Positions 1,787-33,439 of a DNA stretch of 35,807 nucleotides are shown here, in pieces; within the stretch, counting starts at the first letter, position 1; the number at the start of each line of letters is the position of its first letter. The position numbers and the translations under genes were made by a program. This DNA comes from Thiomargarita sp. Its GTDB lineage: Bacteria > Pseudomonadota > Gammaproteobacteria > Beggiatoales > Beggiatoaceae. The notes below the pieces were generated by a model, which was not told where the DNA came from, ran no database searches, and saw only the letters and a list, made by a program, of their open reading frames with translations. The stretch is from contig DYRG01000007.1 in NCBI GenBank assembly GCA_020718845.1, positions 1-35,807 of the forward strand. The letters run 5' to 3'.

Positions 1787-2725
1787 TTACTTAGCTGGAG
1801 TTTGAGATAAACTAAATACATAAGCAGCTAATAAATGCACCTTGGCATCACCTAAAAACTCACCGTGCGCAGGCATTACACCAGCACGACCTTTGGCAAT
1901 GGATTCGATAACGGTTTCACGTTTGCCGCCATATAACCAAATTTCGTCGGTTAAATTGGGCGCGCCTAACGCTGCCATACCTTTTCCATCAACGCCGTGA
2001 CAACCAGAGCAAATGGCAAATTTTTCTTTACCTTGAGCGGCTAATTCGGCGTTCACGTCTTTGCGATTGCTTAAACTTAGGACGTATTCAGCAACTGCTT
2101 TAACGCCATCATCGCCACCTAAGGTATCTTTCCACGCGACCATTCCTGCGGAATTTTTGCCTTTGGAGATGACTTCTTCGATGGTTTTGGGGTCGCTACC
2201 GTATAGCCAATCGTTATCACGCAGATTTGGGAATCCCGTTGAGCCTTTTGCGTCAGAACCGTGACAAACCGTGCAATAGGTCATGAACAAACGTTCGCCC
2301 ATTTTAACGGCTTTTTGGTTCTTCACGAGTTCTTCAACGGGGGTATTTTTATGTTCCTCAAACATAGGACCATAAGTGCTTTCTGCGTTGTTCATTTCGA
2401 TATTGTATTGGACGTACTGATCTTGTTTAAGGAGACCTTGAAAGTTTCCTAGTCCTGGGTACAAAGCCAAATAAACGATTGCAAAATACAAGGTGATATA
2501 GAACATATTCAGCCACCATTTGGGTAGCGGATTGTTATATTCTTGCAAGTCACCATCCCAAGTGTGACCCATTGTTTCGGTATTGCCATGTTCGTCTTGT
2601 TTGGCTGGGGGACTTTTGCCTAACCAGATGATTAAAGCAAAGCAAGCAGCAATACTCAACACGGTAATAACAATAATGTACCAATTCCAAAACTCACTAA
2701 CAAATAAGTTGCTGTAATCAGGCAT
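1787..2725 (-). CDS. ccoP: cbb3-type cytochrome c oxidase subunit III (di-heme c)
   Basis: CcoP is the di-heme c subunit that takes electrons from soluble or membrane c cytochromes and passes them through CcoO to the CcoN catalytic site. The 312-residue protein has an N-terminal membrane helix (about 15-35) and a second hydrophobic segment (about 71-90), as in the longer CcoP type. Two periplasmic cytochrome c domains follow, with heme motifs CTVCH (151-155) and CSGCH (239-243). Likely axial Met residues are M195 (AGMVAW) and M284 (GVMPAH). Its ATG overlaps the ccoQ end by 8 bases, and a terminator follows. It is the last gene of ccoNOQP. Confidence 0.96.
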   Translation of the reverse strand: MPDYSNLFVSEFWNWYIIVITVLSIAACFALIIWLGKSPPAKQDEHGNTETMGHTWDGDLQEYNNPLPKWWLNMFYITLYFAIVYLALYPGLGNFQGLLKQDQYVQYNIEMNNAESTYGPMFEEHKNTPVEELVKNQKAVKMGERLFMTYCTVCHGSDAKGSTGFPNLRDNDWLYGSDPKTIEEVISKGKNSAGMVAWKDTLGGDDGVKAVAEYVLSLSNRKDVNAELAAQGKEKFAICSGCHGVDGKGMAALGAPNLTDEIWLYGGKRETVIESIAKGRAGVMPAHGEFLGDAKVHLLAAYVFSLSQTPAK

Positions 2726-2921
2726 GTTTATTCTCCTGTGGGGATTTCATAGAACCTTTTGGGGCATTCAACCCCTCGTCTTCATCGAAAGGTAGATGAG
2801 CGGCTTCGTCGAAAGTAGAACTGCGTTTGCTAAAAGTCCACAACAAAATACCTACAAACACCACAAACACCACGACCGACCAAATCGGGTTGAAGATTGC
2901 GTAAAAGGATTCTAGTGACAT
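2718..2921 (-). CDS. ccoQ: cbb3-type oxidase small subunit CcoQ
   Basis: CcoQ is a small single-span membrane protein that stabilises the cbb3 complex. The product has 67 residues, with one hydrophobic helix at about 13-29 (IWSVVVFVVFVGILLW), then a basic KRSS and an acidic tail (FDEDEG) typical of the family. It lies 3 bases after ccoO and overlaps ccoP by 8 bases, which suggests translational coupling. Identity rests as much on position between ccoO and ccoP as on sequence. Confidence 0.9.
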   Translation of the reverse strand: MSLESFYAIFNPIWSVVVFVVFVGILLWTFSKRSSTFDEAAHLPFDEDEGLNAPKGSMKSPQENKHA

Positions 2922-2924
2922 CCC

Positions 2925-3539
2925 TTATCTCCGTTGTTTAACGGCTGTTCCCAGCCCTTGTAGATAAGCGACTACCGCTTCGAGCTCCGTTTTGCCTTTG
3001 ATGGCTTCGGGGGCTTTAGCAATGTCGTCGTCGGTATAAGGTACGCCTAAAAACTTCATCGCATTCAATTTAGCTTGAATGCCATTTTCGTCGAGTTTAG
3101 CGTCCGCCAACCAAGGATAACTTGGCATGATAGATTCTGGCACAACATCACGAGGGTTGTTTAAATGTGCAATGTGCCAAGCGTCGCTGTAACGACCGCC
3201 CACGCGAGCTAAGTCGGGACCTGTCCGTTTTGAACCCCATTGAAAGGGATGGTCATAAACAAACTCACCCGCCACAGAGTAATGCCCGTAACGTTCGGTT
3301 TCAGCGCGGAACGGACGAATCATTTGTGAATGACATAAATAGCATCCTTCACGAATATAAACATCACGACCCTCTAGTTGCAATGCAGTGTAAGGTTTCA
3401 AGCCTTCGACTGGTTGAGTGGTACTTTTCATAAAGAACAAAGGAACAATTTGAACTAATCCTCCAACACTGACAACTATGAGGATCAAGATCACCATTAG
3501 ACCAATATTCTTTTCGACTGTTTCATGTGCCGCAGCCAT
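2925..3539 (-). CDS. ccoO: cbb3-type cytochrome c oxidase subunit II (mono-heme c)
   Basis: CcoO is the membrane-anchored mono-heme cytochrome c subunit that relays electrons from CcoP to CcoN. The 204-residue protein (family about 200) has one N-terminal helix (about 12-36). The periplasmic heme domain carries CYLCH at 66-70 in the family-typical setting [16 protein letters not shown]. The likely axial Met is M138 in [28 protein letters not shown] is also characteristic. The gene lies between ccoN (18-base gap) and ccoQ in the standard order. Confidence 0.96.
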
Positions 3540-3557
3540 CTTGTTTTAACTCCTCAA

Positions 3558-4976
3558 TTAGTGCGCGTGAGCAGGTTCTGGAATGGCAGCTTCAACTGTT
3601 TTTGCACCTTTGATGGTCATAAAAATATTGAACGCCATAATGCACATACCTGTTAAAAATAACAAACCGCCTAAGAATCGCATTGCATAGAAAGGGTGCA
3701 TCGCTTGAACAGATTCAATAAAGCTGTAAGTCAATGTTCCGTCTTCATTTACTGCACGCCACATTAAGCCTTGCATAATGCCAGAAACCCACATTGATGT
3801 AATGTAGAAAATAATCCCGACGGTTGCAATCCAGAAATGCCATTCAACTAATGCTAAGCTATAAAGTTCACGGTTAAATAAACGAGGAATTAAGTAATAC
3901 ATACTTCCCATTGTTACTAAACCCACCCAACCTAATGCGCCAGAGTGAACGTGACCTACCGTCCAATCGGTGTAGTGAGAAAGTGCATTCACTGATTTAA
4001 TTGCCATCATTGGACCTTCAAAGGTCGACATACCATAGAAAGACAACGAAACAATTAAGAAACGCATAATAGGATCAGTACGAAGTTTCTCCCACGCACC
4101 TGATAACGTCATGATTCCATTGATCATTCCACCCCAAGAAGGCGCTAATAAAATCAACGACATCACCATCCCTAAAGATTGTGCCCAATCGGGTAATGCG
4201 GTGTAATGCAAATGGTGAGGACCCGCCCAAATATAGGTGAAAATCAACGCCCAAAAATGCACGATCGATAAACGATAAGAATAAACTGGACGACCTGCTT
4301 GTTTAGGTACAAAGTAATACATCATGCCTAAAAAGCCCGCAGTTAAGAAAAAACCAACCGCGTTATGACCATACCACCATTGCACCATCGCATCTTGCGC
4401 GCCCGCATACACGGAGTAAGATTTGGTTAATGAAACAGGAATCGCTAAATTATTGAAAATATGCAACATTGCAATGGTCAAAATGAACGCGCCATAAAAC
4501 CAGTTTGCAACATAAATGTGAGGCGTTTTACGTTTAACAATTGTTCCAAAGAAAACAACCGCATACGCAACCCATACGAAGGTAATTAAAACATCAACAG
4601 GCCATTCTAATTCAGCATATTCTCTACTTTCGGTGATCCCTAAAGGTAAAGTGATCGCCGCTAACACGATGACCACTTGCCAACCCCAAAAGGTGAACGC
4701 CGCTAAACCGTCTGAAAACAAACGTGTGTGACAAGTCCGTTGGACAACGTAATAAGAGGTCGCAAATAACGCCGAACCCCCAAACGCAAAAATCACCGCA
4801 TTGGTATGCAGTGGACGCAACCGCCCGAACGTAATCCAAGGCAAGTCAAAGTTTAACCAAGGCCACGCCAATTCTGCCGCAACGTACACCCCGACCGCCA
4901 TCCCAACAATTCCCCAGACAATAGTCATAATGGCAAATTGTCGGACGACTTTGTAATTATAAGTGGCTTCAGCCAT
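3558..4976 (-). CDS. ccoN: cbb3-type cytochrome c oxidase catalytic subunit I
   Basis: CcoN reduces O2 at a heme b3-CuB centre and pumps protons; cbb3 enzymes work at low oxygen. The 472-residue protein is highly hydrophobic with about 12 helices. Expected ligands are visible: H57 (RPLHTNA) and H344 for low-spin heme b, H342 (GHVHSG) for heme b3, and H204 (WWYGHN) with H254/H255 (AGPHHLHY) for CuB. A strong AGGAGG site precedes the ATG. It is the first gene of ccoNOQP. The FNR-type promoter 230 bases upstream implies induction under oxygen limitation. The maturation gene ccoS is about 15 kb away at 20371. Confidence 0.97.
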
Positions 4977-18151: not shown

Positions 18152-20368
18152 ATGAAATATCCTTGGTTTCCTTTAATTATATTGGGTTTCTACACACAAG
18201 CAAATAGTGAGAATGCTGCTTTGTGTCAAGCAATGGACAGTTTTATGCCAGTTCGTCCGAATTCTCAAATATATCAAGATGATAGTTATCATTTGAGTTC
18301 TAATCAAGCCGATATTCGTGAAATAAAAGGTATTAAACATTATTTGTTTAAAGGCGATGTTTTGCTGCAATATCAACAACGTACCGTGCGATCCGATCAA
18401 GTAACTTATCAAGAAGATACTGCGTTATTAACTGCGGAAGGTAATGTTACTTTGTGGGATAAACAATTGATTACACAAGGAAAAAAAGTCAACATCCGTT
18501 CAGATCGAACTGGTGAAGCATTTGATATGCAATATTGGTTGCCAAAACGTCGAGGACATGGAGAAGCATTGCACGCAGAACGTTTGAATGAAGACCAAAT
18601 AAAATTGAAAGAAACGCGCTATACAACCTGCGATCCAAATGAAGAAACTTGGCGATTACAAAGTAAAACAGTTGATTTAGATTTTAAAGAAGAACTGGGC
18701 ATTGCAAGAGATGCCACTTTACATATTAAAGATGTGCCTGTTTTTTATTTGCCGTATATTAGTTTTCCTTTAAGTGATAAAAGAAAAAGTGGTTTCTTAA
18801 TGCCGTCGGGTGGTTATTCAAAAACTCGAGGATTTGAAATCACCACGCCTTATTATTTGAATCTTGCACCAAATTATGATGCAACCTTAACGCCTCGTTT
18901 AATGACCAATCGCGGTTTAATGTTAAATAGTGAATTTCGTTATTTGACAGAAACTTCTAATGGTAAAATAATTAATGAATATTTACCAAATGATCGTGAA
19001 GAAACTGATCAGAACAAACGTTATTTCTGGCAAGTAAAAAATACCACTAAATTTAATCCACAATGGACAGGAGAACTTTATTATAATAAAACGTCAGATT
19101 CTCGTTATTTTGAGCATTTTGGAACAACCCCAGAAATCAATAATATTACCCATTTAGAACAACGTGCAGATTTAAAATTTCAAAACAATTTATTACGTTT
19201 CACAGGAAGAGCGCAGCGTTATCAATCTTTATTAGAAGATTTAAATGCTAAACCTTATGAACGGTTGCCACAATTGCTTGCAGAAACAGTTCAAACTAAA
19301 CGTAACAACCAGCTTTACTTTCAAAGCAATGCAGAGTATGTTCATTTCAATCGTGACGATAAAGAAGCCATTAATGGAAAACGGAGCAACTTTACGGGTG
19401 CGGTGAGTTATCCTTTTAAGAAACTTGCGGGTTTCTTTGAACCTAAATTACGGGTTGATTATACAAATTATAGTTTAGATTCTCAAACCAATGAAAATCG
19501 TTTTTTATATAGTGCAACGGCTGATGGTGGTTTGTTTTTTGAACGCACTTTAGATTTTAATGATTCTTCATTATTACAAACCTTAGAACCGCGTTTATTT
19601 TATTTGTATCGTCCTTACAAAGATCAAAAGAATATCCCAATATATGATTCGGCAGAAACTGATTTCTCTTTTAGCCAAATGTTTAGAGATAATCGTTTTA
19701 GTGGAATTGATCGTTTAAGTGATGAAAATCGGATTGCAACGAGTATTACAACCCGCTTTTTAGGGCAAGAAACAGGTGAAGAATATGTGAAAGCAAGTAT
19801 TGGACAAATTTATTATTTTGAAAAGCCTCAAGTCACTTTACCAACTCAAACTCGTTTTATTACAGATCATAATTCTGATTTATTAGAAGAAGTTTCTTTT
19901 AGATTATCAAAAGATTTCACATTTAGCCAAAATCTGCAATGGAATTATCAACAAAAAGAAATAGTTAAAAGCTCAGTAGCTTTAACTTATCAACCAAAAG
20001 GTCAAAACACAGTTATTAATTTAGCACATCGACTTCGTAAAGATTTGCCAGAGAAAATGAATCAAACAGATAGTTCTTGGTTCTTACCTGTGACAAATTA
20101 TTTGAGGGTTTTAGGACGTTGGAATTATTCATTAGAAAATAGTAAGCATTTAGAAACCTTTGCTGGATTTGAATATGAAAGCTGTTGTTGGGCAATTCGT
20201 TTGGTTGGAAGACGTTATTTACAAAACGCCCAAAATGATTACAGTAATGGTATTTATTTACAGTTTGAATTTAAAGGTTTGGCGGGCACTGGTAAAACAA
20301 CGAATACCTTTTTAAAACAAAGTATTCCTGGATTTCACTCACCATTAGAAGAAAGCATTAGAAGATAA
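18152..20368 (+). CDS. lptD: LPS assembly outer-membrane protein LptD
   Basis: LptD (OstA/Imp) is the beta-barrel that, with LptE, inserts lipopolysaccharide in the outer leaflet. The 738-residue protein has a signal peptide (about 1-19) and an OstA-type jellyroll (about 45-170: LFKGDVLLQYQQRTVRSDQV, TAEGNVTLWD). A large barrel follows with the family motif PVFYLPYISFPLSDKRKSG. Four cysteines match the essential disulfide set of E. coli: C25, C160, C678 and C679 (YESCCWAIRLV). Its usual neighbour surA is absent; instead it follows gspD by 18 bases and is 2 bases before ccoS. The operon thus groups outer-membrane machines. Confidence 0.95.
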   Translation: MKYPWFPLIILGFYTQANSENAALCQAMDSFMPVRPNSQIYQDDSYHLSSNQADIREIKGIKHYLFKGDVLLQYQQRTVRSDQVTYQEDTALLTAEGNVTLWDKQLITQGKKVNIRSDRTGEAFDMQYWLPKRRGHGEALHAERLNEDQIKLKETRYTTCDPNEETWRLQSKTVDLDFKEELGIARDATLHIKDVPVFYLPYISFPLSDKRKSGFLMPSGGYSKTRGFEITTPYYLNLAPNYDATLTPRLMTNRGLMLNSEFRYLTETSNGKIINEYLPNDREETDQNKRYFWQVKNTTKFNPQWTGELYYNKTSDSRYFEHFGTTPEINNITHLEQRADLKFQNNLLRFTGRAQRYQSLLEDLNAKPYERLPQLLAETVQTKRNNQLYFQSNAEYVHFNRDDKEAINGKRSNFTGAVSYPFKKLAGFFEPKLRVDYTNYSLDSQTNENRFLYSATADGGLFFERTLDFNDSSLLQTLEPRLFYLYRPYKDQKNIPIYDSAETDFSFSQMFRDNRFSGIDRLSDENRIATSITTRFLGQETGEEYVKASIGQIYYFEKPQVTLPTQTRFITDHNSDLLEEVSFRLSKDFTFSQNLQWNYQQKEIVKSSVALTYQPKGQNTVINLAHRLRKDLPEKMNQTDSSWFLPVTNYLRVLGRWNYSLENSKHLETFAGFEYESCCWAIRLVGRRYLQNAQNDYSNGIYLQFEFKGLAGTGKTTNTFLKQSIPGFHSPLEESIRR

Positions 20369-20370
20369 AC

Positions 20371-20541
20371 ATGGATATTTTATATTTGTTAATTCCCGTT
20401 TCTTTGGTTTTAGTGGTTGGAATCACTGCTGCGTTTCTTTGGTCGATTAAAAGCGGTCAATTTGAGGATTTAGAAGGTCCAGCGCATCAGATTTTAATGG
20501 ACGATGACACGCCAAAGCATAAGAAAGTTTCAGAAGAATAA
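20371..20541 (+). CDS. ccoS: cbb3 oxidase maturation protein CcoS (56 codons)
   Basis: CcoS (FixS) is needed to insert heme b and copper into CcoN. The short frame encodes 56 residues beginning M-D-I-L-Y-L-L-I-P-V-S-L, one membrane helix (about 3-24), then the family hallmark FLWSIKSGQFEDLEGPA with the hydrophilic tail HQILMDDDTPKH. It begins 2 bases after lptD and ends 11 bases before the TIR gene, so it is co-transcribed with unrelated genes. The usual ccoG, ccoH and ccoI partners are not beside it, and the oxidase operon is about 15 kb away on the other strand. Confidence 0.93.
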   Translation: MDILYLLIPVSLVLVVGITAAFLWSIKSGQFEDLEGPAHQILMDDDTPKHKKVSEE

Positions 20542-20552
20542 TTAAGCAACTT

Positions 20553-21938
20553 ATGTTTAAACCAGTTGAAATTTTTTATGCTTATGCTCATGCAGATGAA
20601 ATCTTGCGTCAAACCTTAGAAAAGCATTTGATAGTATTACAACATCAAGGTATTATTTGCGGTTGGCATGATCGAGAAATTGCAGCAGGTGATATTAGAG
20701 AAACAGAAGTAAAGAAACATTTGAATAACGCGCAATTGATTTTATTATTAATTAGCCCCGATTTTCTCGCCTCAGATGAATGCTATCAAATGGCATTGCA
20801 CGCATTAGAACGCCACGCACAAGGTCATACAAAAGTCATCCCTATTTTGTTACGTCCGACAGATATGTCGAGATTGCCTTTTATTCATTTGTCAGCCTTA
20901 CCTAGCAATAATGAACCCGTGACGTTGTGGACAAATCAAGATGCGGCATTTGTCGACATTGCAAAAGGCATTCGTCAAACCGCTGAACGTCTATCAAATC
21001 ACGTAAGTTCTTTTATTAAACCACAAGGAAATCCTTTTAATCCCACGCAATATATTTCTCCGTTGCGTTTTATTGGTAGAAATCATGAATTAAATGAAGT
21101 ATTTAGCATTTTAGAAGATAATCAAAGTGTTTCATTAGTGGGCGAACAACTGATGGGAAAAACATCATTTCTTCATAAAATTATGGATCATTTTAAATGT
21201 AATGTACCTCAAAAGAAAATTTTATTATTTAGTGGTTTAGATAGTGCAAGTCAAGCGATTACAAATTTTATTGAAAATATTATTGAAGAACGCATAGAAA
21301 GTGAAGATTCTGATCGTCTTGCTGATCAATTAGATCGTTGGGTTTCTAAAAACACGCAACAAGGCACGATTCCTCTTATTATTGTGGATGATGCAGAAAT
21401 CTTATTTGAACGGTTTCCAGTGCGTTTCTTGGAGCGTTTAAGGGGAATGTTAGGACGGATTTCTTTTATTTTTGCAACGCAGCGAGATTTGGATTTATTA
21501 ATTAATGAAATTTCTCGCACGTCTGGATTAGAAAATCGCTTGAAAATAATTAGATTAACTCTATTAGAAGACTCAGCAGTTGAAAATATTATTCAAGCGG
21601 GTTCTCCAATTTTATCAAAAGAAGATCAAACACTTTTAAAAGAATGGGCGGGACATCATCCTTTCTATTTGCATTTGTTGGGTGCTCGTTTGTTTAATGC
21701 ACGATTGCAAGGTCAACATAGTGAAGTTGCAATCGATCGTTTCTATATGGAAGCAGCACCTAAATTACGTCGGATTTGGAATAGTTTGCCAGAAATTGAT
21801 AAAATCACATTAAAAAATTTAAGTCAAGGAAAACAGATATTTACAAGACATAGAATTTTAAAAATACGAGGTTTGCTCACGCCCGATGGACAATTATTTG
21901 GTAGGATTTTACAAGAATGGATCGAACAAGAAACATAA
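20553..21938 (+). CDS. TIR-domain protein with STAND/AAA-like ATPase
   Basis: The 461-residue protein starts with a TIR domain (about 4-145: VEIFYAYAHADE, WHDREIAAGD, QLILLLISPDFLASDE, KVIPILLRPTDM). A P-loop ATPase of STAND/AAA_16 type follows: FIGRNHEL (173-180), P-loop GEQLMGKTS (197-205), Walker B LIIVDD (275-280) and ATQR (308-311). A helical, probably winged-helix C-terminus ends the protein (about 410-461). TIR domains in bacteria often cleave NAD+ after a sensor domain is triggered. Where a catalytic Glu is expected after the S-D-x-C motif, this protein reads DECYQMAL, so activity is doubtful. It has no signal peptide or membrane helix. Its end overlaps the next ATPase gene by 22 bases, pointing to joint function. 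The trigger and target are unknown. Confidence 0.85.
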   Translation: MFKPVEIFYAYAHADEILRQTLEKHLIVLQHQGIICGWHDREIAAGDIRETEVKKHLNNAQLILLLISPDFLASDECYQMALHALERHAQGHTKVIPILLRPTDMSRLPFIHLSALPSNNEPVTLWTNQDAAFVDIAKGIRQTAERLSNHVSSFIKPQGNPFNPTQYISPLRFIGRNHELNEVFSILEDNQSVSLVGEQLMGKTSFLHKIMDHFKCNVPQKKILLFSGLDSASQAITNFIENIIEERIESEDSDRLADQLDRWVSKNTQQGTIPLIIVDDAEILFERFPVRFLERLRGMLGRISFIFATQRDLDLLINEISRTSGLENRLKIIRLTLLEDSAVENIIQAGSPILSKEDQTLLKEWAGHHPFYLHLLGARLFNARLQGQHSEVAIDRFYMEAAPKLRRIWNSLPEIDKITLKNLSQGKQIFTRHRILKIRGLLTPDGQLFGRILQEWIEQET

Positions 21939-24274
21939 CAAATAATTTACCACCTTTCTTTCAATTTCTTTGGTTGTTTTTTATGCAACCTATTAAATTA
22001 TATCAAATCCTCAAAAGCTGTGGAATTGAACAACCAGATGCACCGATTTTTAATTTGTGGTGTTATCATGAATCGCTTTGTGAAATTCAAAGACATTATG
22101 TTATTCAACTCGTAAAAATATCATTGCTGACTGTTCCAATTGTTAGTTTCTATGGCGTAATATTTCTTTCAAATAATATTATTTTATCTTATTCTCTTAA
22201 TTTAAATAATATTGTTTTAAGTGTTTTAATTGGTATTTTAGTTGGTCTTTTAGTGGGTGGTTTAATTGGCTTATTAATTGGGATTGTTAATGGTATTACT
22301 GCAAGTTTGATTTCAGGGATTTTAATTGGCTTTCTTGCCATATTGTTAGAACATAAAGGTATTTTGTTATTATCTGGAAATCCAAATTCAATTATTTTTA
22401 TTGCAATTTTTATGGGTGGAGTTTGGGGTTTTATTGATAACATAGCCTTTGCACTTTCAAATGGTTATTTGAGAGGAAGATCAACCATTTTAACCACCTT
22501 ACTGCATACTTTATGGATTAGTGGTGTTTTTAGTTTAGCTATTACATTTCATAATTATTCTGTTGAATCAAATTTTCAAGAGATTTTCATTATTTTTATG
22601 AAACATTATGTCGCTTTTTTCATACCATTTTCTTTAATTTTTACGATTAGTTATTTAAGACTACCTTTTTATATTTTAGAAAGTTTTTGGCAAACTTTGA
22701 TTTATTATCGTCAGCTTTTAACTGGCGCAGAATCCTTGCATTTATCACCCGTTTTGTATCATAATTTATCTTATTTTTCATATCCTTATTTAGTTAAACA
22801 TTGCTTGCTTTCAAAAGAATCTAATCCTGTTATACTAAAGAAAATACTTGAAACAAGCGTATTAACGCCCGGGCAAAAAACAAATTTTCAAAAAATTTTA
22901 GCGCGGTTGCAAGTTGATGAAATTACTAAGTTAATTAGAACTAATAAATTTAAACAGTTATCTGAATTACGCGGAGAATGGCTATCAATACCTACACAAA
23001 ACATTTCTTCGCCGCTTTTATTAATTAAAGAAATCGGACGTTATTTACAAGCCGCAAATAGTGTTATTTTTACTTATCATCGATTGCAAAATTTAAAAGA
23101 TGCTGAAATAATTTTAAAACAATTAGAAACTCAACTACATCAGGATAATTCACCTTTAGGAAAGATGATGAATGCACAGCTTGCAACTTGGAGAAACTGG
23201 TTAGAACTCTGGCGTGAAGAAACGGAGCAAGTAAGTCGCCGTGAAGTGCCTAATCCTTTTCGTTCTGGAGAACCCCTAACACCTGAGCGTGGATCAGAGG
23301 TTTTTCGTGGAAGAACTGATTTGATTATGCAAATAGAAGGCTTATTAGCAGACCCTCAACAACGCCTTTCAATTGCTTTATTAGGACCGCGTCGAGTGGG
23401 TAAAACATCGTTGTTATATATGCTACCTTCTTTGTTACCGCATAGCATTTGTATTTTCTTTGATTTGCAAGATAATCCGATTGATAAACCAACGCATTTT
23501 TTTCAAGCATTGTCGAGAAGAATTCATGAGCAAATTCCTAAAGATAAAAACATTAAATTACCCACTTTACCCATTAATGCAACTATAGAAAATGCGGCGG
23601 AATGGTTAAGAGAATTAGATCATAGTTTAGGTAATCAACAATTATTGATTTCAATTGATGAATTTGAGCGTTTAGAAAGTGTTTTTCCGGGTAATCAACG
23701 TGAGTTTCTTCAGCTAATGGGAATCTTTCGTTCAATCATTCAACATCGTCGTAATATTTGTTTATTATTAGCGGGGGTTGCACCTTTTGATGAACTTGAT
23801 TCAATTTGGACAGATCATTTTATTAATGTGCGTGAAGTAAAGATTGGTTTTCTTTCAAAGAAAAATGCACTTGAATTATTAATGCGTCCAGTAATTGGTT
23901 TTCCAAGTCAAGCGATTTCTCAAGAGGTTGCAGAAAATGTATTTGAACGCACGGCTGGACAACCACTTTTGTTGCAATTTTATGGTTCTCGTTTAGTGCA
24001 ATCATTAAATGAGCAAAATCGTCGAGAAGCAACCTTAAAAGACATAGAAAAAATTGAAGAACGTGCATTAGAAGAAGTGACTTATTATTTTCGTAATTTA
24101 TATCAAACAACGCCGCAGCATTTGCAACCTATTTTAGAGCAACTCGCGTATAATAAACTTGTTGATTTGGATAGAAAAGATAAGGCTTGGTTACGGCGGC
24201 GTTTATTAATTGATGAAAATAATCAATTAGTGATGCCAGTTTTTGCAATGTGGATTCGTGAATATTTTATTTGA
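21917..24274 (+). CDS. Membrane-anchored AAA/STAND ATPase with glycine zipper
   Basis: I do not recognise a named family for the whole 785-residue protein. Residues 15-270 hold about six hydrophobic segments. Between 106 and 138 every fourth residue is small (eight Gly and one Ser), a long glycine zipper. A helical cytoplasmic region (270-440) leads to an ATPase: FRGRTDLI (463-470), P-loop GPRRVGKTS (490-498) and Walker B ISIDEFE (578-584). This ATPase has the same layout as the TIR protein encoded immediately upstream, which it overlaps by 22 bases. The start at 21917 keeps the hydrophobic FFQFLWLFFMQP segment; the ATG at 21983 is an alternative without a good ribosome-binding site. A role in a conflict or cell-death module is inferred, not shown. 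Confidence 0.8.
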   Translation: MDRTRNITNNLPPFFQFLWLFFMQPIKLYQILKSCGIEQPDAPIFNLWCYHESLCEIQRHYVIQLVKISLLTVPIVSFYGVIFLSNNIILSYSLNLNNIVLSVLIGILVGLLVGGLIGLLIGIVNGITASLISGILIGFLAILLEHKGILLLSGNPNSIIFIAIFMGGVWGFIDNIAFALSNGYLRGRSTILTTLLHTLWISGVFSLAITFHNYSVESNFQEIFIIFMKHYVAFFIPFSLIFTISYLRLPFYILESFWQTLIYYRQLLTGAESLHLSPVLYHNLSYFSYPYLVKHCLLSKESNPVILKKILETSVLTPGQKTNFQKILARLQVDEITKLIRTNKFKQLSELRGEWLSIPTQNISSPLLLIKEIGRYLQAANSVIFTYHRLQNLKDAEIILKQLETQLHQDNSPLGKMMNAQLATWRNWLELWREETEQVSRREVPNPFRSGEPLTPERGSEVFRGRTDLIMQIEGLLADPQQRLSIALLGPRRVGKTSLLYMLPSLLPHSICIFFDLQDNPIDKPTHFFQALSRRIHEQIPKDKNIKLPTLPINATIENAAEWLRELDHSLGNQQLLISIDEFERLESVFPGNQREFLQLMGIFRSIIQHRRNICLLLAGVAPFDELDSIWTDHFINVREVKIGFLSKKNALELLMRPVIGFPSQAISQEVAENVFERTAGQPLLLQFYGSRLVQSLNEQNRREATLKDIEKIEERALEEVTYYFRNLYQTTPQHLQPILEQLAYNKLVDLDRKDKAWLRRRLLIDENNQLVMPVFAMWIREYFI

Positions 24275-24288
24275 AAAGGAGAAACTTT

Positions 24289-24762
24289 ATGCGGTACTTT
24301 TTATTTCTAGTTTTAATGTTCAGCTCATTTATAACAAAAGCTGAATTTGTTTCAGAAGATAACCTGATTGCAACGTATCGAAGTAACGAAAGTTTTGAAA
24401 CCGTTAAAGAAAACGTTCAGCAGGCGATTACAAATAAAGGTTTGATTATTAGCGGGACATTGCACATTAGTGAAATGTTAAATCGCACCGCAAAAGATTT
24501 GGGGATTTCTAAAAACGCTTATCAGAAAGCGGAAGCCTTTGAGTTTTGTAGTGCGGTGCTTTCTCACAAAATGATTCAAGTAAATCCTTTGAATTTAACC
24601 GCTTGTCCTTTCACAATTACTTTTTTTGTGAAACCCGAAGAAACCAATGTTGTTTATTTGGCATTTCGTAAGCCACAATTAGCGGGAGAAAGTAAAGAAG
24701 TTTCTCAAGAAATTAACAATTTTCTACACAGTATTGTTAAAGAAGCGACGGGAGAATTTTAA
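24289..24762 (+). CDS. Periplasmic DUF302-like protein
   Basis: The ATG at 24289 follows a strong AAAGGAG site (24275-24281); the TTG at 24271 would place that site inside the gene. The product is 157 residues with a signal peptide (MRYFLFLVLMFSSFITKA, cut before EFVSED). The mature part has the fold pattern of DUF302: SFETVKENVQQAITNKGLII near the start, FCSAVLSHKMIQVNPLNLTACP in the middle with a Cys pair, and LAFRKP near the end. The family's biochemical role is not known to me. It is the last gene of the plus-strand cluster, 14 bases after the membrane ATPase. Confidence 0.75.
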   Translation: MRYFLFLVLMFSSFITKAEFVSEDNLIATYRSNESFETVKENVQQAITNKGLIISGTLHISEMLNRTAKDLGISKNAYQKAEAFEFCSAVLSHKMIQVNPLNLTACPFTITFFVKPEETNVVYLAFRKPQLAGESKEVSQEINNFLHSIVKEATGEF

Positions 24763-31345: not shown

Positions 31346-33439
31346 ATGTTGCGTCATCTTTGGACAGCGTTATATGTGGTTATTATTGCGATGCTTCCGA
31401 CCAGCAGTTGGGCGTTGTGTTATTACTTGGTGGATCAACAAGGTAACGTGCAATCTTCAATTTATCCGCCTTACGATTTGAGTTATCCGTCCGATCAATT
31501 ATCGCCCGCCGAACGCGCCCGCCGTGCCCAACTGGGTCATTTGATTATCGGTGCTCGAGTCCCAACTTGCAACAATCAACCCTTTTCTCCGCCCAAAATC
31601 GCTAAAACACAACCTGTTGATTCTAATAAAAAAGTCGATAACACAACTACCACTCAAAATGCGCCTCCGCTTAAAAAACCACTCACCCCAACCGAAATCC
31701 AAGAAGCCACTAAATCATTTCAAAAAACTGAAGAAAATCAACAAATTACAACAAGACCCGCGTCAAAACCATTGCCCACAGTCGAAGAGCCTTTAAAGGA
31801 AACTAAAAAAACTGAAGTCGTAAAAGAAGAAACAACTCAACCCGTTAAAACACCATCTGCAAAAGAAAAGCCCGTTGAAAATCAACAAGTTGCATCAACG
31901 CCAGCCGTCACGCAAGCAAAAGAACCGCCTTTAGCGACGACGAAAGAAACTGTAAAAGAAAAAACAGAGCAACCTGCCGAAAAACTTGCTGAAAAACAAG
32001 CCATTCAAATTACTGAAAATATGGCATTACAAGCGATTCAATCTATTGATGATACTTTAAGCAGACGAGATTTGGTTTCTTATCGTAAATTATTAGCCCC
32101 GTCTTTAGAAGTCGGCGAATCAAAAAGCGGCAAATTAAAAATGCAAAAACTCACCGCCGAAACCTATAGCAAACAATTAGAACAAGCCTTATCAAAAATT
32201 GCTCGTTATGAATTAAAACATATCGACCCAAAAATAACGATTGATCATGAGAAATCTCAAGCAACCGTTAATTCAGAAGTTCATGTGCGTTTGGAGTTTC
32301 AAGATGCTTTAGAAACCAGTAAAACTTACGGTGAAATCACAACCTTTAATTTGGTAAATGAAAAATTGTTATTAAGCCGTTTAGCGGTGATTGCAAATGC
32401 ACCAAAATCAACGCCTCAAACTGCACCCGCTGTTTCAGAAACAAAACAACCTGTTGATCGTTGTAAAGGCATTAGTGAAATCCCAGAAACCGAATGTCAA
32501 TCTTTAGTTGAATTATATGAAACCACCGACGGCGATAAATGGAAGAATAAAAAGAATTGGTTTAAAACGAAACAACCTTGTCAATGGTTTGGCGTAACTT
32601 GCGTTAATAATCATGTGGTTACGATTAAATTGGATAAAAACCAACTTAATGGAAATGTACCTAATTTAAGTGGTTTAACCGTGTTAAAAATCCTTAATTT
32701 ATCCAGAAATAATTTAACAGGAGGATTACCGTCGTTTAATGCGTTATTGGAATTAGAAGTTTTAGCGTTGGACAATAACAAATTAAATGGACGTTTGCCC
32801 GAATTAAATCATTTGAAAATGTTGAGGATTTTAGAATTAAATAAAAACCAATTAACGGGTAATCTTCCTAATTTGGATAATTTTATAGAATTGGAAGAAA
32901 TTAATTTGAGCGACAATCAATTTGTCGGTGATTTGCCAAGTTTGAAAAAAATGAACAAACTTCAAAAATTTGCAATCTATAATAATCAATTAACAGGGAA
33001 TTTACCTGAATTAGATCAATTGGTCAGTTTGAAATCGATGCACTTATCTGGAAATCGTTTGACGGGACAAATCCCAGATGTGAGCAACTTATTGCAATTA
33101 GAATCGCTTAATTTGAGCGTTAATCAATTATCTGGAAATTTGCCGATTGGTTTGTCAAAATTAGCGAATTTGAAATGGTTGCAATTAGAAAGCAATCAAT
33201 TGAGTGGAAAAATACCTGATTTGAAAGATTTGCCTAAATTAAGTATTTTAAAACTTCAAAATAATCAATTATGCGGAGAAATTCATGAGGGATTGAGATT
33301 GAGTGGTTTAAAAGAAGCAAACAGTGAATTACAAATTCAAAACAACCATTTAACCGCCGATCATCAAGAATTATTGAGTTTCTTAGAAAGCAAAATTCCA
33401 AATTGGCAAACCACTCAGAAACCTCAGGCTTGTGAATGA
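31346..33439 (+). CDS. Secreted plant-type leucine-rich-repeat protein
   Basis: The 697-residue protein has a signal peptide (about 1-23, PTSSWA before LCYYLVD). A short N-terminal Cys-containing region (24-75) precedes a long Pro/Lys/Thr/Glu-rich linker (about 80-220). A folded region (about 222-350, ENMALQAIQSIDDTLSRRDL) looks like an NTF2/SnoaL-like domain. A plant-type LRR cap follows (C373, C384, C412, C419; PCQWFGVTC), then about ten LRRs (424-673) of the L-x-G-x-L/I-P class. An AAGGGG site precedes the ATG. It is likely periplasmic or exported and binds other proteins or surface polymers. No anchor or sorting signal is seen at the C-terminus. Its role is unknown. Confidence 0.85.
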   Translation: MLRHLWTALYVVIIAMLPTSSWALCYYLVDQQGNVQSSIYPPYDLSYPSDQLSPAERARRAQLGHLIIGARVPTCNNQPFSPPKIAKTQPVDSNKKVDNTTTTQNAPPLKKPLTPTEIQEATKSFQKTEENQQITTRPASKPLPTVEEPLKETKKTEVVKEETTQPVKTPSAKEKPVENQQVASTPAVTQAKEPPLATTKETVKEKTEQPAEKLAEKQAIQITENMALQAIQSIDDTLSRRDLVSYRKLLAPSLEVGESKSGKLKMQKLTAETYSKQLEQALSKIARYELKHIDPKITIDHEKSQATVNSEVHVRLEFQDALETSKTYGEITTFNLVNEKLLLSRLAVIANAPKSTPQTAPAVSETKQPVDRCKGISEIPETECQSLVELYETTDGDKWKNKKNWFKTKQPCQWFGVTCVNNHVVTIKLDKNQLNGNVPNLSGLTVLKILNLSRNNLTGGLPSFNALLELEVLALDNNKLNGRLPELNHLKMLRILELNKNQLTGNLPNLDNFIELEEINLSDNQFVGDLPSLKKMNKLQKFAIYNNQLTGNLPELDQLVSLKSMHLSGNRLTGQIPDVSNLLQLESLNLSVNQLSGNLPIGLSKLANLKWLQLESNQLSGKIPDLKDLPKLSILKLQNNQLCGEIHEGLRLSGLKEANSELQIQNNHLTADHQELLSFLESKIPNWQTTQKPQACE
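32615..33364 (+). repeat. In-frame LRR repeat array, 69-base period
   Basis: About ten units of usually 23 codons, pattern L-x-x-L-x-x-L-x-L-x-x-N-x-L-x-G-x-L/I-P. The units differ at most other positions, and codon choice varies, so the DNA is diverged rather than a recent tandem expansion. The seventh unit has an extra residue and the last is irregular. Confidence 0.85.

Follow-up and report, generated by a model that had tools for sequence, protein, structure and literature searches.

A conserved pair of STAND-type ATPase genes in Thiomargarita sp., with a TIR-like domain on one product and a glycine-zipper membrane region on the other: a candidate two-component conflict module

The 35,807 nucleotides of contig DYRG01000007.1 from Thiomargarita sp. 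(GenBank assembly GCA_020718845.1), which we refer to as a whole as the window, contain two overlapping genes that encode a TIR-ATPase and a membrane ATPase. An initial annotation, made from the letters of the DNA and without database searches, had proposed that these genes form a two-gene conflict module, and that they do so within a run of envelope genes. We therefore asked whether the two genes belong together, and what kind of system they are likely to constitute. We favor, with some reservation, the reading that the pair is a two-component, membrane-tethered STAND conflict module, i.e., one that would act in immunity or programmed cell death. Four features of the sequences carry this reading: homologous ATPases whose Walker A and Walker B motifs are both intact, pairing that crosses phyla, exchange of the domain on the first ATPase, and a hydrophobic region with a glycine zipper on the second protein. 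A function in defense is inferred from these features.

The architecture that had been described for the two genes (Table 1) was borne out. The first gene encodes a TIR domain fused to a P-loop ATPase, with matches to Pfam TIR_2 (E 2.2e-11) and an AAA_22-like match in one 461-aa open reading frame (ORF). The second gene, which overlaps it by 22 bases, encodes a multi-helix membrane protein in which six hydrophobic segments are followed by an ATPase of the same layout. The AAA_22 match of protein 1 (aa 190-314, E 1.6e-5) lies just below the Pfam cut-off and that of protein 2 (aa 482-626, E 8.5e-10) above it; protein 2 additionally has a sub-cut-off match to nSTAND1 (aa 458-765, E 4.1e-5). The FxGR box (FIGR in protein 1, FRGR in protein 2), the GKTS loop (GEQLMGKTS, GPRRVGKTS) and the acidic strand end (IIVDDAE, ISIDEFE) are present in both proteins, as are the P-loop, Walker B and GxP-type motifs of STAND/AAA_22 ATPases, and the two ATPase halves are homologous (22% over 345 aa, BLASTP E 7e-6). 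Among the aligned relatives of the gene 1 ATPase (hereafter ATP1) and of gene 2 (hereafter P2), the Walker A lysine is present in 13/13 and 11/11 rows and the Walker B aspartate in 12/13 and 11/11 rows, respectively; the ATP1 of Methylovulum has GKM in place of GKT/S. Judged by these motifs, both ATPases look active.

In a Foldseek search with the model of protein 1 (mean predicted local distance difference test score [pLDDT] 89.5, predicted template-modeling score 0.63) the top match was the tetramer core of the plant TIR-NLR (nucleotide-binding leucine-rich-repeat receptor) RPP1 (E 1.2e-10), joined by other plant resistosome NLRs and followed by ORC/Cdc6 and clamp loaders, with the SIR2-STAND protein EfAvs5 at rank 40 (3.8e-5). 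The TM-scores of these matches were low, about 0.3-0.4 by query, because the domains are placed differently. For the model of protein 2, the archaeal ATPase 2qen came first (4.8e-9) and Sr35 second, with ORC and, at rank 18, CED-4 further down a list that contains many AAA+ proteins. When PDB chains were searched by sequence, protein 1 matched TIR proteins and, weakly, one ATP-binding protein, whilst protein 2 matched none; NCBIfam gave no match to protein 2 at E <= 0.1. A hydropathy scan of protein 1 found no membrane-type segment, and we read its C-terminal part as winged-helix-like.

Relatives of the two genes are found together. We took as the P2 group the 17 genes that scored at least 400 bits against the P2 core alignment (A4). 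Four of these lie at contig edges, and all of the remaining 13 have a same-strand ATP1 gene upstream, without an intervening ORF in 12 of the 13 pairs; in the other (L064) two genes stand between ATP1 and P2, one of them a Uma2 match and the other very similar to it. Among the four edge cases, contigs of the same genome carry ATP1 and the start of P2, broken in the repeat region, in G037 and G019; the other two are G033, which is unassigned either way, and G411, described below. The pairs were chosen by P2 similarity, the ATP1 gene of L140 was detected only by a stop-to-stop scan, and the census omits L088 (a P2 fragment at a contig start), L141 and L144. Because 11 of the 17 P2 genes are themselves rows of A4, and most of their ATP1 partners are rows of the ATP1 profile (A5), the profile scores of these genes are high by construction and not independent; what is independent of the profiles is the BLAST kinship of the ATP1 proteins, together with the pairs at L140 and L142, which are in neither profile.

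The spacing and the divergence of the paired genes were also compared. Overlaps of 22, 22, 22, 25, 26 and 28 bp are found among the pairs, and the others have gaps of 37, 142 or 328 bp or uncertain starts; since the census uses longest-ORF starts, overlaps other than that of the window are approximate, and one of 395 bp in L089 is surely a start artefact. Distances among ATP1 proteins and among P2 proteins are correlated in a Mantel test, both for the 13 complete pairs (r 0.90, 0/10000 permutations), a set from which split and degenerate pairs were left out, and for the nine core pairs (r 0.695, 8/10000 permutations). In a tree of 37 P2 rows, hand-chosen and hand-labelled, the window falls within a 12-row clade (support 100/99) comprising nine paired rows, L137 at a contig edge, and the single genes L068 and L069, which are membrane-less and on a long branch; the P2 genes of the window and of Venteria are sisters (100/99). 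A myxobacterial trio is placed, with weak support (87/50), beside pairs in which the P-loop of the first ATPase is eroded; the G032 group joins pairs of the helix-turn-helix (HTH) type (98/98). A degraded remnant of a pair, with repetitive filler between two ATPase fragments, lies at L067 629-2271 in G017.

The pair is sparse within its own family and rare outside it, where it crosses phyla. The best P2 relatives (E <= 1.9e-135) are found in 6/42 genomes of the same family, a count that the 400-bit group raises to 10/42 by adding G032, G037, G033 and G019. A contig scan identified 11 loci, including those of Thioploca SL_4_0, Thiomargarita RS_2_10, Candidatus Venteria ishoeyi, Thiotrichaceae S06.Bin195, Thiotrichales BB2 and Methylovulum psychrotolerans, as well as metagenome-assembled genomes (MAGs) labelled Planctomyces, Kofleriaceae, Myxococcales, Solibacter and Kuenenia, although MAG taxon labels may be mis-binned. 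At least 5/369 genomes of the class have a match, one of them (G279) outside the family, as have at least 4/282 and at least 3/246 genomes of two other phyla; these tallies, all lower bounds because no more than 3 to 5 candidates were scored in each genome, count the query genomes (G000; G407 and G410; G408) and include matches of different architecture (G608).

What is carried by ATP1 varies from pair to pair. SEFIR domains are found on ATP1 in Thioploca and in G895, from a planctomycete sample (Pfam E 3e-19 and 3.4e-7); a TIR domain in the Planctomyces MAG; a calcineurin-like phosphoesterase in Methylovulum (Metallophos, E 6.7e-13); PNP in Kofleriaceae (PNP_UDP_1, E 5e-19); SIR2 in two myxobacterial genomes (SIR2_2, E 1.7e-10 and 1.3e-5); and trypsin in the split pair of G037 (Trypsin_2, E 2.5e-15). 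The Pfam TIR_2 match among the relatives has an E-value of 5.2e-31, and the Venteria pair has its TIR as a separate gene. By hydropathy, three Thiotrichales have an N-terminal membrane segment on ATP1 (two helices are resolved in G006 only) and G032 has a C-terminal one. Even sister P2 genes can have different partners, as in Thioploca, with SEFIR, vs. G006, with a membrane segment (support 99/93). Assigned in this way, the domains on ATP1 are those customarily listed as effectors in predicted conflict systems, and two published studies treat effector-domain swapping on a constant chassis as the hallmark by which such systems are recognized (PMC7159879, PMC8195603). Co-occurrence in varied contexts (13/13), the exchange of effectors and the Mantel correlation support the two-gene module of conflict type that had been suggested for the window.

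Two further loci bear on this variation. In G411, a MAG, the next ORF after ATP1 codes for a Ser/Thr kinase and runs off the contig (L136 3-947 (-)); a P2 core that lacks the membrane part is found at the end of a second contig (L137 1747-3318 (-)). By eye the ATP1 ORF is a phosphoesterase-ATPase; Pfam, run on the truncated ORF, called the ATPase only, with no Metallophos match. Because a kinase ORF follows ATP1 and the P2 core is membrane-less, this layout suggests, without proving, that the membrane part is also replaceable, perhaps by a kinase. The Thioploca pair has a neighbor of conflict type directly behind it: a 1773-aa protein (L062 1611-6932 (-)) with three TIR-like regions, which matches PADLOC TIR models and has WD40-like repeats by eye.

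The membrane part of P2 is seen in the available sequence of 16 of the 17 proteins. In the window the longest chain of glycines at every fourth residue is 6, a value reached by 0/500 shuffles of the region; 15 of the 16 membrane regions have chains of 4 to 21, each reached by no more than 4/500 shuffles, and the exception is L140, with a chain of 3 that 99/500 shuffles reach. Glycine zippers occur in pore-forming and in tightly packing helices. The glycine run of the window is encoded by a 12-bp tandem repeat, which has 6.2 copies there, 23.8 in L064 and 15.1 in L066, the three loci checked; as an in-frame repeat coding for a membrane domain, it would provide a natural series of length variants. 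The helical linker between the membrane part and the ATPase is possibly a sensor or a scaffold.

The copy in the window departs from its relatives in the TIR domain. The fold is retained, as indicated by the TIR_2 match and by the model, and the active-site glutamate, the catalytic residue of TIR NADases, is present in 12/12 other aligned TIR domains, of which a single protein supplies three, vs. alanine 81 here, with one residue missing beside it. Box 1 reads AYAH, vs. SYSH in the nearest relatives. The TIR domain is thus very probably inactive, a likely pseudo-enzyme by its sequence. Because of the substitution and the deletion, an NADase output of this copy is unlikely, and the TIR output that the initial annotation had assigned to it was not upheld. 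The sole other TIR_2 match in the genome (G000) is a stand-alone 237-aa protein on contig 30 (L076 9888-10601 (-)), which has an intact glutamate and 44% identity to the TIR domain of the window; its gene sits between a MipA gene and an M48-peptidase gene.

Two alternative explanations turn on this domain. The first is decay: the copy in the window would be a conflict module whose ORFs are still open but whose TIR activity has been lost, so that it does nothing as a system. The lost glutamate and the adjacent deletion are what such decay would produce, and a related locus in G017 is visibly fragmented; however, the ORFs are full length and the Walker motifs, the overlap and the glycine zipper are intact, and decay would therefore be confined to the TIR active site. 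We consider this explanation distinctly improbable. The second is a Thoeris-like system, in which the TIR protein makes an NAD-derived signal for a separate effector. A search with PADLOC, one of the checks proposed along with the original claim, did match the TIR part of protein 1 to the ThsB1 profile (PDLC00420, aa 6-152, E 9.2e-48), but gave nothing better than E 0.008 for protein 2. The likeness to ThsB lies in the TIR sequence family; here, in contrast, the catalytic residue is missing and an ATPase is fused to the domain, matches to SIR2, SLOG or macro domains are absent from protein 2, and non-TIR domains take the place of the TIR in relatives. Because the glutamate is missing and no ThsA-like gene was found among the scanned neighbors, we rejected membership in Thoeris despite the strong match, and leave a Thoeris-like mechanism only a very small chance.

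The closest published counterpart of the conflict module that we favor is the two-gene nSTAND2 operon (Kaur et al., eLife 2021, PMC8195603, Fig. 6C), which is presented there as adjacent STAND ATPase genes with a variable effector on one of them, proposed to form a hetero-multimer and described as mobile. As in that operon, both genes of the window encode STAND-type ATPases and are adjacent. According to the section of PMC8195603 that deals with the operon, one partner there has eroded NTP motifs, whereas both ATPases are intact here; its effectors are most commonly GT4 or HEPN, whereas here they are TIR, SEFIR, SIR2, PNP, phosphoesterase or a membrane segment; and that section makes no mention of a glycine-zipper membrane domain. 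The nSTAND2 family itself (PF20702) matched neither window protein at E <= 1, and two relatives have sub-cut-off matches (3.6e-4 and 2.3e-3). As read by eye, eroded P-loops are confined to a distant sister group, and there was no GT4 or HEPN among the Pfam-named effectors of the relatives. As judged from sequence features, the conserved paired-STAND module, of conflict-system type, resembles the nSTAND2 operon in kind and differs from it in its STAND family, its two apparently active ATPases, its effectors and its glycine zipper.

Other known systems share single aspects of the pair. The EACC1/caspase two-gene system, as outlined in part of its published description, likewise comprises two genes, with a glycine patch in its membrane helix and effectors that vary, and is enriched in multicellular bacteria, but its constant parts are EACC1 and a caspase and not an ATPase pair. 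Avs and other STAND defense proteins and the plant TIR-NLRs have the effector-STAND architecture in common with protein 1; unlike Avs proteins, protein 1 has no long C-terminal repeat sensor, ends soon after the ATPase and has no repeat-family match, and unlike both groups the system is divided between two proteins, with the membrane domain on the partner. The MoxR and vWA partners of MoxR-vWA ternary (iSTAND) systems were absent among the scanned window proteins. The pair is not described in the literature consulted, which included passages of PMC8195603, PMC7159879, PMC10907252 and PMC4853749, though its absence from print is unproven.

We propose the following mechanism for the module. Translational coupling would yield matched amounts of the two proteins, which would form a hetero-oligomeric, ATP-dependent assembly at the inner membrane; a trigger would switch the assembly, and the output would come jointly from protein 1, through its N-terminal domain, and from protein 2, through its membrane domain. 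In the window copy the output is unlikely to be NAD cleavage by its own TIR, which lacks the catalytic residue. The TIR might instead be an adaptor that recruits another TIR, such as the intact one on another contig, or the output might be left to the membrane domain, through permeabilization. More tentatively, and with doubts that outweigh our confidence, we suggest that the pair may be a bacterial counterpart of paired plant NLRs, in which an interchangeable sensor/effector ATPase would act with an executor that inserts its glycine-zipper domain of variable repeat length, the dead TIR serving as an adaptor or decoy that engages an intact TIR encoded elsewhere.

If the pair is a defense module, it would add to bacterial immunity a paired-STAND design with a membrane executor, one chassis with exchangeable effectors, and a testable bacterial pseudo-enzyme TIR. 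The pair is not named by any model in PADLOC or NCBIfam, and a scan with these resources would therefore return just a "ThsB-like TIR".

The genomic setting raises the main alternative, an envelope housekeeping or stress-signalling pair, in which a membrane-bound ATPase and its partner would sense or remodel envelope components in a role unrelated to phage defense. The lptD gene of the window ends at 20368, a small ORF of 56 residues (20371-20541 (+)), which we identify by eye as ccoS, begins 2 bp later, and gene 1 begins 11 bp past that ORF. Given this spacing, it is reasonable, as far as gene order goes, to place the pair inside an envelope operon, and no defense island is present around the window; the place behind lptD, on the other hand, is not conserved across the nine other pair regions, near which there is no gspF, gspD, lptD or ccoS-like ORF. 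The order kdsA-eno recurs near the Thiomargarita pair only (L065 5436-7809), where the pair sits on the opposite side of these genes; a 28% kdsA match in L064 was taken for a paralogue. A consensus scan found no excess of promoters near the pair (24 seen vs. 30.0 in shuffles) and no terminator-like site on the + strand of the pair region.

Relatives elsewhere also bear on the envelope explanation. The single membrane-less relatives L068 5064-8585 and L069 1-2843 (G018 and G014) lie directly behind MlaD and ABC_trans_aux lipoprotein genes, as does the split ATP1/P2 pair of G019 (L074 920-3852). P2-like genes of the wider superfamily are present in 40/42 family genomes, and HTH domains, as would be expected of regulators, are found in sister groups of gene 1. 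These distant pairs consist of an HTH-ATPase and a membrane ATPase of about 650-950 aa (e.g., L078, L154, L157 and L158, with an HTH match above the Pfam cut-off solely in L154 and L158) or of an ATPase with an eroded P-loop, by eye, and a second ATPase (L117, L121 and L080, with GLA repeats read in L117 and L080). Relatives of MlaD and the auxiliary genes, however, occur in just 3/90 regions, for which reason we kept the MlaD link only as a lead; the close pair is sparse and crosses phyla; and an effector set of TIR, SEFIR, SIR2, PNP, phosphoesterase and trypsin is difficult to reconcile with housekeeping. We therefore regard an envelope function as unlikely.

Several observations weigh against a conflict module and should be set beside the evidence for it. 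The singles just described sit behind MlaD-type lipid-transport genes; of the 11 P2 genes in the strict 12-row clade for which upstream sequence is available, 9 are paired; and the 400-bit group does not form a single clade, with the myxobacterial trio and the G032 group falling among the HTH and eroded-P-loop groups. A broad census of 143 ATPase ORFs of the wider superfamily counted 80 paired, 11 unpaired at edges and 52 unpaired away from edges; among these last are genes that stand alone, members of other families, and pairs that the thresholds did not catch. It had been stated at the outset that homologues occurring singly as often as together would speak against a module; this was not the case in the 400-bit group or in the strict clade, but pairing is not absolute and singles are many in the wider superfamily. 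The Mantel correlation partly reflects descent. The TIR of the window lacks its glutamate, protein 2 is without a good PADLOC match, and its membrane part is poorly modelled by AlphaFold2 (pLDDT < 50 at aa 86-155), with a topology that is not confident. The scanned neighbors are mostly housekeeping and sensor-kinase genes, searches of plasmids and viral contigs gave no match to the pair, and the G+C content of the two genes (0.347 and 0.319) is similar to that of the surroundings (0.344 and 0.365), and thus gives no sign of recent arrival. The other window proteins matched by PADLOC are a hybrid kinase, with the SduA and PDC models, and a 132-aa ORF, with PD-T4-6 (E 1.4e-6); these matches were taken to be unrelated.

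On its 3' side the pair is followed by a DUF302-like gene, with a Pfam match below the cut-off, and then by a convergent gene read by eye as eno. Homologues of the DUF302-like gene are found in 14/42 family genomes. We considered it as a third component and rejected it, because the homologue and the pair are on different contigs, and thus unlinked, in G015, G006 and G008.

Table 1. Positions of the paired genes, their domains and the adjacent downstream gene in the window.
Feature	Position	Strand	Description
Gene 1 (TIR-like domain and STAND/AAA_22-like ATPase)	20553..21938	+	461 aa, ATG start, open ORF
TIR domain	20571..20894	+	aa 7-114; fold kept; Pfam TIR_2 E 2.2e-11, above cut-off
TIR catalytic-Glu position	20793-20795	+	Ala 81; one residue missing beside it
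ATPase of gene 1	21030..21935	+	aa 160-461; Walker A GEQLMGKTS aa 197-205; Walker B IIVDDAE, D279
Overlap of genes 1 and 2	21917..21938	+	22 bp; 22 bp also in Thioploca and Venteria pairs (longest-ORF starts)
Gene 2 (membrane region, helical linker, second ATPase)	21917..24274	+	785 aa, ATG start, open ORF
Membrane region of gene 2	22097..22648	+	aa 61-244; six hydrophobic segments (hydropathy scan)
12-bp in-frame tandem repeat	22224..22297	+	6.2 copies, 73% matches; encodes GxxxG (glycine-zipper) run
Helical linker, membrane part to ATPase	22724..23236	+	about aa 270-440
ATPase of gene 2	23249..24271	+	about aa 445-785; Walker A GPRRVGKTS aa 490-498; Walker B D581/E582
DUF302-like gene	24271-24762	+	sub-cut-off match; probable ATG start 24289

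Two further features of the window were recorded. A leucine-rich-repeat protein of 697 aa is encoded 7 kb from the pair (31346-33439 (+)), with no PADLOC match at E <= 1e-5, and cbb3 oxidase genes, with FixP, FixO and COX1 matches, lie at 1787-4976 (-), 15 kb from the ccoS-like ORF.

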